Assembly (NCBI GenBank): GCA_021740905.1
Contig: JAIOYV010000004.1
Coordinates: 62,001 to 126,000, forward strand
Direction of reading: 5' to 3'
DNA from: Bacteroidales bacterium
GTDB taxonomy: Bacteria > Bacteroidota > Bacteroidia > Bacteroidales > M50B96
Length of the DNA stretch: 64,000 nucleotides
In this document: piece by piece, positions 60,243 to 62,484 of the stretch
Position numbering within the stretch: the stretch's first letter is position 1
How the letters are laid out: each line of letters starts with the position of its first letter
Notes under the pieces: generated by a model
Told to the model about the DNA's origin: nothing
What the model saw: the letters and a program-made list of their open reading frames with translations, nothing else
Database searches by the model: none
Program-made: the position numbers and the translations under genes

Positions 60243-60737
60243 TCAATACAGCTCAATAAACTCATAAGAGTTTCCACACCATTGCAGATATTTCATAAAA
60301 TCATCGAACGAAATAACCAGAGTAGCCTGGTTATCGTTCGGATGAAAGCTAAGGTTTTTCGATTGCTTTAAGGTTTGATCGATAAAAAGATGAACATGCT
60401 TTTCGGCATCGTTTACCAGTCCAAATGGCGAAACGGAACCAGCCTTCAAGCCCAGATATTTATCCATCCTTTTTTCGGAAGCAAAGCTGATTTTTCCCTG
60501 TTTAAGTCGTTGTTCCAAATCGCGCACGGCCAGGTTTTGGGAATAGTGCAGCAAAACTAGATAATGCCGGTTCCCTTTGTGGTTGCGGAAAAACAGGTTT
60601 TTGCAATGGGTCGAATAGTCAATGTCCTTCCAGTGTTCCATAGCAATTTCGATGGTAGGCGAAGGCGGATGCTCGTAATATTCAAATTTGATGTTCAGTT
60701 CCTGCAATGCCTGATAAACTTTTGAATCTCCGATCAT
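60243..60737 (-). CDS. Prolyl-tRNA deacylase ProX / YbaK-EbsC family
   Basis: MIGDSKVYQALQELNIKFEYYEHPPSPTIEIAMEHW, CKNLFFRNHKGNRHYLVLLH, YLGLKAGSVSPFGLVND; start at 60737 rather than 60803. Confidence 0.93.
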   Translation of the reverse strand: MIGDSKVYQALQELNIKFEYYEHPPSPTIEIAMEHWKDIDYSTHCKNLFFRNHKGNRHYLVLLHYSQNLAVRDLEQRLKQGKISFASEKRMDKYLGLKAGSVSPFGLVNDAEKHVHLFIDQTLKQSKNLSFHPNDNQATLVISFDDFMKYLQWCGNSYEFIELY

Positions 60738-60798
60738 GTTCTTTCTGCCAGTTAATGTGTTAGTTTTATACTTTTGGTTGTTCTTTGCCTCATTGGGA

Positions 60799-61031
60799 GT
60801 CATTTGCTTTGCGTCATTCGCTTTGCGTCATTTGCTTCACGTCATTTATCCTTCGGATGTCATTAGTGCTTCGCACGTCATTTGCACTTCGTGCGTCATT
60901 TATCGTGCTTCCCGATTGCGACCTCCCACCAACGCCAAGGCTTCGGTGGGTAAAAATGACAACTTAATGACAACGTAATAACTACCTAATAACGCGAAGC
61001 GAATGACCATCGAATGACTAAATAAAATGAC
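60799..61031. repeat. Array of GTCATT words separated by variable mini-hairpins, facing an inverted AATGAC arm
   Basis: Units of 14,14,14,18,18,18 nt starting at 60799; AATGAC at 60955, 60966, 61002, 61013, 61026. Confidence 0.9.
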
Positions 61032-61053: not shown

Positions 61054-62484
61054 CTAAGTCTTTTGATACCCCGTCTCTTTCACAAAACCCCACAAAAAGG
61101 TTGAGATGGCAAGCGAAATACCAGAAACAAGAAAGACAATCCAATTATACTCTTCGATATAGGCATTCACCAAAATGCCGATTATAAAACTAGCCAAAAG
61201 CTGGGGCAATACCACCGACAGATTGAAAATGCCCATGTACAAGCCAATTTTTTCTTTATTGATTTTCTCGGTCATGATGGCAAAAGGCAGACTTACCAGC
61301 GACGACCAACCCAGGGAGAGGACTACCATCAATGCGTAAAAAACATATTGGTTTGAAGCAAAAAAGGCAATGCCAAAATACCCGATCGCCATCAACCCGA
61401 TTGAAATAATATGTGTTTTTACCCGGCCAATTTTCTTTGAAAGGGGTTCGAGAAAAAATATGGGGAACAGGGATCCAAAAGCATTCAATAAAAAGAAGGC
61501 CCATCCGATCATTTTTCCGGCAGCATCGTTATCGTCACTGTATTTATGTAGCACAAAGAAAAAACCATAGACAAACATGGTTTGCACCCCCAGCCAGGTA
61601 AACGAATGGGCCGCCAGCAATTTCCGAAAACTTCGCTCATTGGCGACATCGCCCGTCTGGCCCGATTCTTTCGCCATGAAAGTGGACAGCATCAAAACAA
61701 CCCCAATGCCGATAAGGATATACATGACCGTTTGGCTTTCGGGGAACATGCCCAATTTCAAGCCAATGCCATACATGGCAAATATCAGATAACCATACAA
61801 AGGTGTCAAGGTCAATAGTACTTCTTTTGTCGAAACACGGACTTTCGGTGTATCTGTTTTCTCAAGTGAAAGTGACCGGGGCTCTTCGATCATAAATACC
61901 GGAATAATGGTAAAAACAAGGATAAGCGCAATGCCAATGTTCATCAATAAATAATTGTCGAGCAACGCACTGATGAGGTAGGCACCTGCCCCGAAAAAGT
62001 TGGAGATGGCCTGCATCCACGCGAAACCCCTGGTCCGGGGAGCACCTTCAGGAGTAACATCGGCAATGATCGAGCGAGTTGGATTGAACCCCACATTTAT
62101 TGACAGATCGAGTGTCAGGGCCACTGTAATTGCTACGGCCATTATATTTCCAATACCCAGAGCATGGTCAATCAGATCGAGGCGGGGAAGGCAATAGATC
62201 ATTATTGCTGCCAATATTCCGCCAATAATGATAAATGGTTTGCGCCGTCCGCCCCAGAACCAAACCTTATCGCTGACCACCCCAATGATGATCTGTCCCA
62301 GAATCCCGGCAATTGGACCTGCTGCCCAAACTATACCTACTTCATGGATGTCGAGTCCGTATTTCGAGGATAGGATCCAGCTCAAAACGGCTATCTGGAT
62401 TGATAAGCCAAACCCCATGGCAGTGGCTGGTAGGCTGAGGATTACGTAAAAAAGCTTGCTTAATTTTTTTTGGTATGCGAGCAT
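61054..62484 (-). CDS. MFS transporter, SLC45/sugar-proton symporter-like
   Basis: 12-TM pattern; GIVWAAGPIAGILGQIIIGVVSDKVWFWGGRRKPFIIIGG, RGFAWMQAISNFFGAGAYL. Confidence 0.88.
   Translation of the reverse strand: MLAYQKKLSKLFYVILSLPATAMGFGLSIQIAVLSWILSSKYGLDIHEVGIVWAAGPIAGILGQIIIGVVSDKVWFWGGRRKPFIIIGGILAAIMIYCLPRLDLIDHALGIGNIMAVAITVALTLDLSINVGFNPTRSIIADVTPEGAPRTRGFAWMQAISNFFGAGAYLISALLDNYLLMNIGIALILVFTIIPVFMIEEPRSLSLEKTDTPKVRVSTKEVLLTLTPLYGYLIFAMYGIGLKLGMFPESQTVMYILIGIGVVLMLSTFMAKESGQTGDVANERSFRKLLAAHSFTWLGVQTMFVYGFFFVLHKYSDDNDAAGKMIGWAFFLLNAFGSLFPIFFLEPLSKKIGRVKTHIISIGLMAIGYFGIAFFASNQYVFYALMVVLSLGWSSLVSLPFAIMTEKINKEKIGLYMGIFNLSVVLPQLLASFIIGILVNAYIEEYNWIVFLVSGISLAISTFLWGFVKETGYQKT

Follow-up and report, generated by a model that had tools for sequence, protein, structure and literature searches.

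A GTCATT/AATGAC hairpin array of a Bacteroidales genome: an apparently mobile REP-like repeat that changes quickly and seems to take its shape in single-stranded DNA

The array and its genomic neighborhood

The array lies at positions 60799-61031 of the window, by which we mean the whole 64,000-nucleotide stretch of DNA analyzed, taken from a 6.54 Mb draft genome of a Bacteroidales bacterium. Its left arm consists of GTCATT words and its right arm of AATGAC/AATAAC words, on either side of a centre. The array stands between two genes of the reverse strand, directly past the stop codon of the second:

60243..60737, reverse strand: gene coding for an aminoacyl-tRNA editing (YbaK/ProX-like) domain; its start is probably near 60737
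60799..60916, forward strand: hairpin arm, seven GTCATT units of 14, 14, 14, 18, 18, 18 and 22 nt, from sequence inspection
60841..60894, forward strand: three successive 18-nt units with 4-bp stems ATCC/GGAT, GTGC/GCAC and GCAC/GTGC, from the sequence and the genome-wide vocabulary
60917..60954, no strand: centre between the arms, with a hairpin of 6-bp stem, CCCACC (60925-60930) / GGTGGG (60945-60950)
60955..61031, reverse strand: ladder arm, AATGAC words and degenerate AATAAC words, mostly at 11-nt spacing
61054..62484, reverse strand: MFS transporter gene

The seven left units, the three variable stems and the central hairpin were all described in the initial annotation and are present in the sequence as claimed, as are its five AATGAC words (60955, 60966, 61002, 61013 and 61026). 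The TTC loop is common to the three 18-nt units and reads GAA on the opposite strand; read on the reverse strand, the hairpin arm is a series of AATGAC words with mini-hairpins, for example GCACGAAGTGC. In the ladder arm the degenerate words at 60977 and 60988 keep the 11-nt register, and one hairpin unit, GCGAAGCG, is found at 60994-61001. Taken alone, the word is no more frequent in the window than expected (43 observed, 43.5 expected); what is unusual there is its clustering and the pairing of the sequences between words. A 251-nt region folds far better than its shuffles, both as RNA (z -6.1) and as DNA (z -5.0), and an Rfam search with the array matched no family.

Central hairpins nearly identical to the one at 60925-60950 are found in at least three further arrays of the same genome (C29, C66 and C56), and together with ACGCCAAGGCTTCGG this hairpin recurs as a separate module. 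A longer version of the tRNA-editing reading frame extends to 60803 and begins at an ATG within the first repeat word; this in-frame ATG adds 22 codons (60737-60803), and the array may provide an alternative start for the gene.

A dispersed family with fixed polarity

A genome-wide search for such units, as the initial annotation had proposed, shows that the array is not unique. BLAST of the array against its own genome gave 127 matches in about 39 clusters, from which our set of loci, possibly incomplete, was derived, and a pattern of three words at array spacing gave 381 matches genome-wide and 0 for the reversed control pattern. Over 33 loci, 493 of 495 words follow the order GTCATT and then AATGAC, with 2 words breaking it. 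At 22 of the 33 loci short spacers abound in one arm and hairpin spacers in the other. The parts of the element are a hexamer with short spacers (the ladder arm), the same hexamer with G-N-A mini-hairpins (the hairpin arm) and, between them, an AT-rich centre. The short spacers are mostly 5 nt long (n=240) with the form N-A-Y-Y-K, while hairpin spacers measure 8 nt (n=85), 9 nt (n=24), 10 nt (n=17) or 12 nt (n=20) and include GCGAAGCN, ACGAAGTN, GGCGAAGCCA, GCGCGAAGCGCA, ATCCGAAGGATA, GTGCGAAGCACT and GCACGAAGTGCA, among others. Within this genome, no more than a short motif, AACAATA, recurs beside the hairpin arm.

The copies are not identical, differing from one another in the number and the order of their units, and on this point the claim of a constant word with interchangeable stems holds. 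The arrays also contain higher-order tandem repeats of units, which means that plain tandem duplication clearly takes part; the earlier view that plain slippage would not be expected to yield such units is supported insofar as more than slippage is involved. These duplications are what would be expected if the arrays were purely mutational, with a seed word beside a mini-hairpin growing by slippage and template switching perfecting the stems, free of movement or selection. Such a process does not account for a word that recurs with its spacers and its polarity unchanged at about 39 loci, nor for its recurrence in distant phyla.

All inspected loci in the genome are intergenic, between genes that are tandem in 24 cases, convergent in 11 and divergent in 6, and most sit after a stop codon. 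This dominance of sites past stop codons, like the strong RNA fold of the region, favors a reading of the arrays as transcribed 3' structures whose arms would pair with each other in the RNA and serve as terminators or stabilizers, with the stems kept by selection on RNA pairing. The divergent loci speak against it, as does a terminator scan of the region that found a single weak terminator-like site, no more than in shuffled sequences, a result on which a simple terminator was rejected. The orientation of the hairpin arm relative to transcription was distal in 10 cases and proximal in 4, which is not significant (p 0.18).

Pairing and loop rules

For the stem counts, units were anchored on C-RNA-G and only pairs outside the anchor were scored. 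In the own genome, Watson-Crick pairs were found in 171 of 180 units at pair 2, 48 of 89 at pair 3 and 29 of 32 at pair 4, and wobble pairs numbered 1, 2 and 0, against 18.8, 7.0 and 2.3 expected if the columns were independent. Summed over pairs 2-4 this gives 248 Watson-Crick to 3 wobble pairs, and the corresponding figures for other genomes are 485 and 18. At pair 2, two-sided changes (A-T or C-G in place of G-C) number 25 and unpaired or wobble states 9. In a test that uses no anchor, 40 of 44 stem positions were paired in the distinct 12-nt spacers of the own genome, a count that none of 20,000 shuffles reached (mean 28.3, maximum 39), so the stems exceed the shuffled controls that the initial annotation had named as its test, and for distinct 8-nt spacers the same procedure gave p = 0.017. 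The constant word with compensatory variable stems that it had described is therefore supported both by the genome-wide spacer vocabulary and by the pair counts.

The loops, too, follow a rule, and the conserved loop of the initial annotation is supported. Among the 30 perfectly paired 12-nt spacers of all genomes, read unanchored on the AATGAC strand, the loop is R-N-A in 29 and G-N-A in 23, and the closing pair is C-G in all 30. Among the 180 anchored units, for which the anchor itself demanded C-RNA-G, 147 have a GNA loop and 146 have GC at pair 2. The constant polarity of the loop assigns the structure to one strand. DNA mini-hairpins of extra stability follow this rule, with a GNA loop set on two or more G-C pairs, and GCGAAGC melts at about 78 C (PMC4686876).

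Helices of RNA tolerate G.U-type pairs, and their near absence here, together with a loop that obeys the DNA mini-hairpin rule, weighs against selection on RNA pairing; a DNA structure or DNA templating fits the scarcity of wobble better. Of the origins that the initial annotation had offered, a transcribed structure is accordingly disfavored, whereas a single-stranded DNA structure and DNA templating are favored, and these two readings are both compatible with the data. Selection on pairing need not be the sole source of compensatory stems, since a single template switch during replication can produce a perfect stem, compensatory changes included (PMC8794818). This documented route is also a point for a purely mutational origin.

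Distribution and turnover in other bacteria

A scan of a genome collection with the unit pair AATGACGCGNAGCNAATGAC gave, among the matches listed, Mucilaginibacter, Prolixibacteraceae, Spirosoma, Flavobacterium and Calditrichaceae, as well as metagenome-assembled genomes (MAGs) labelled Deltaproteobacteria, Nitrospinia and Amesbacteria, such labels being sometimes wrong. The relatives have convergent arms as in the own genome and are sporadic in Bacteroidota, Calditrichaceae, Nitrospinia and CPR. Any match at all was found in 27 of 393 sampled genomes of the phylum, and many matches in only a few. The three genomes of the same family that were searched contain no arrays, and inheritance within the family was rejected on this ground. 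In Mucilaginibacter, 67 of 121 genomes have matches, again sporadically within the genus, which a purely mutational origin does not explain. Carriage by phages or plasmids was likewise rejected, as no match was found in phage or plasmid records by BLAST, which may partly mask such repeats; viral contigs with arrays number only two.

The spacing of the words varies across genomes (1, 2, 4, 5 and 8-12 nt), and ladders with repeats of 7, 8, 10 or 11 nt are seen. Such ladders, with a fixed word and variable spacers, could be the binding sites of a DNA- or RNA-binding protein with AATGAC repeats as its target, on the model put forward for TAACTGA heptamers (PMC4679880). Spacing that differs between genomes rules out helical phasing of the words, and binding does not need self-complementary spacers, so we regard this explanation as very unlikely.

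In the Bacteroidales MAG Tobar18m-G2 the array is contained in a larger element, about 430 nt long, that occurs more than once (L079, L083, L104, L110, L128, L155, L165 and L174), several of which have TTTCATATG at both ends, possibly a target duplication. Arrays of several Mucilaginibacter species (L127, L179, L180, L183, L188 and L203) are found at like junctions, after a gene with a shared …NPVKSLRSE-like C-terminus; these are apparently tandem ABC-transporter permease genes.

Presence, absence and replacement of arrays were observed at orthologous sites. Loci L114 and L139 have both flanks and the array borders in common, while the units between are reshuffled and nearly all hairpins are paired. 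The two contigs, one labelled Deltaproteobacteria (PRO9) and the other Calditrichaceae, are 92.7% identical over 4 kb, and for this reason one MAG label is probably wrong. In Mucilaginibacter genome G445 the ladder arm of the elements repeats GTCATTA or GTCATTG and is joined through a centre to the hairpin arm, and the centre recurs at different loci, which is a further difficulty for a purely mutational origin. At one site (L277) this element is found in G445, convergent arrays of another word occupy the site in G519 and G520 (flanks 91-99% identical), and in G436 and G439 there is no array and a short terminator-like hairpin is found instead. This last observation is a point in favor of transcribed 3' structures. 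A second site (L231), followed in more than 10 species, contains GTCATT arrays, arrays of other words or head-to-head dimers of the GTCATTGCGAG type, which from their sequence look like CGTC REPs. At a third (L186) the element is retained with 15, 18 or 14 ladder units and with different hairpins. The words of the convergent ladders at L231 and L277 are, depending on the species, GTCATT, GTTCATT, CAGTT, AGTATCAAG and AAGTCTGAAG, as if words replaced one another in place. Units turn over fast, as a purely mutational process would also have it; having weighed it on all these points, we consider that process quite unlikely. In the orthologous loci compared, the 'empty' sites differ at the insertion point and yielded neither a target-site duplication nor a clean excision footprint.

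Comparison with known repeats

Of the repeats described so far, the super-family of CGTC-tagged REPs (Di Nocera et al. 2013, PMC3733652) comes closest. The arrays resemble it in the GTC(ATT) head, in the predominance of convergent (head-to-head) pairs, seen here as 493 of 495 words in order, in intergenic locations mostly after genes, in a wide but patchy range of phyla that includes Bacteroidetes, and in having no dedicated transposase, none of the 15 Y1 loci checked here being flanked by arrays. CGTC-tagged REPs, however, have stems of 8-9 bp that start with AT pairs, loops of 4-5 nt and negligible head-to-tail units (PMC3733652), whereas the arrays have stems of 2-4 bp with ATT outside the stem, a 3-nt R-N-A loop, arms in which many units follow one another head to tail, and one arm that is a ladder. 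Because of these differences in stem length, first pairs, loop length and head-to-tail rarity, we do not class the arrays as members.

GTAG REPs or BIMEs with their RAYT (TnpA-REP) are likewise dispersed intergenic hairpins with a constant tag by the stem and inverted pairs, but have GTAG or GTGG at the hairpin foot where the arrays have the constant word AATGAC/GTCATT, and their cognate RAYT is flanked by copies, while at 15 Y1 loci the RAYT/Y1 genes here are without flanking units. MITEs are also non-coding and dispersed, with inverted arms and a size of 200-400 bp; their terminal inverted repeats are fixed, whereas the arms here are arrays of variable units whose number and order differ between copies. 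The TAACTGA heptamer ladders (MacGregor 2015, PMC4679880) share a short constant word in intergenic tandem ladders and a scatter over distant phyla including Bacteroidetes; the word is different, and the portion of that article cited here describes no hairpin arm or convergent arms.

GCGAAGC, the spacer core found most often, and the variants of it with GCA and GTA match exactly the d(GCGNAGC) mini-hairpins of Hirao and colleagues, as cited in PMC4686876, and the arrays follow the rule given there, in which C-G closes the GNA loop and the stem has two or more G-C pairs. The mini-hairpin is known as a stable oligonucleotide; here its sequence lies in genomic arrays. In the literature searched we found no report of natural genomic d(GCGNAGC) arrays, nor the tested array sequences in the context of bacterial repeats.

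Association with Y1 transposases

In Mucilaginibacter, arrays and strong Y1 matches go together, in 39 of 78 genomes against 3 of 43 (odds ratio 13, without phylogeny correction). The array count correlates with the number of Y1 genes (Spearman 0.52, and 0.44 after genome size, also without phylogeny correction) and not with that of rve transposases, used as a control (rho 0.09, p 0.33), so that general transposon load was rejected as the source of the Y1 correlation. No arrays flank Y1 genes within about 1.5 kb at 15 Y1 loci of the own genome and Mucilaginibacter, and a linked RAYT was rejected. The RAYT/TnpA-REP-like enzyme that the initial annotation had suggested looking for is therefore not found beside the arrays, although their REP-like nature is supported.

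Several Y1 genes bear their own, different inverted repeats. Two in Mucilaginibacter (L212 and L216) have a variable-stem hairpin (GCCCC/GGGGC and GCTCC/GGAGC) with a AAAAGGTTTGTAG-like tail, likewise a constant tail with a changing stem. Among the protein sequences read, two strong-match Mucilaginibacter proteins and one Y1 of the own genome have the Y..NQ..HH motif of subclass 1.2. This IS200-like subclass is described as generally lacking the typical IS200 end structures, and no REP partners were reported for it (PMC6006769). We take the Y1 link as a lead and not as a demonstration.

Discussion

The array has the look of a mobile, REP-like repeat that changes quickly and takes its shape in single-stranded DNA. 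The explanation that we favor, with modest confidence in it as a whole, is a non-coding, dispersed and rapidly evolving repeat of the REP/MITE type in which fold-back copying of stems, slippage and seeding by a Y1/HUH enzyme act together. The hairpins would form while the AATGAC strand is single-stranded. Folding back on the very stable C-GNA-G turn, DNA synthesis would copy one half of a stem into the other by template switching, and the stems could in this manner drift in sequence and yet stay perfect, while tandem slippage would alter the number of units. A model of hairpins only fails for the ladder units because these have none. Dispersal is probably the work of a trans-acting single-strand (Y1/HUH) transposase, which would read the fixed word and the shape of the hairpin rather than the stem sequence and would probably seed new loci. 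Where the array is in transcripts it may serve as a 3' structure as a by-product; with the evidence given above, RNA pairing as what maintains the stems seems to us unlikely. Only tentatively would we go further and propose a class of single-strand DNA mobile repeats that are recognized by shape (the C-GNA-G turn and the fixed word), have stems that are free and renewed by fold-back, and are moved in trans by Y1 enzymes, perhaps of the IS200-like subclass 1.2.

The arrays form a family related to CGTC-type REPs, which have long been puzzling for want of a known transposase. Mapped orthologous sites in culturable Mucilaginibacter differ in their arrays, which opens a direct way to search for the agent that moves them. 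The arrays would be natural genomic examples of the extra-stable d(GCGNAGC) mini-hairpin. They are also a natural record of paired-stem change almost without wobble intermediates, and this record bears on whether compensatory changes require selection at all.
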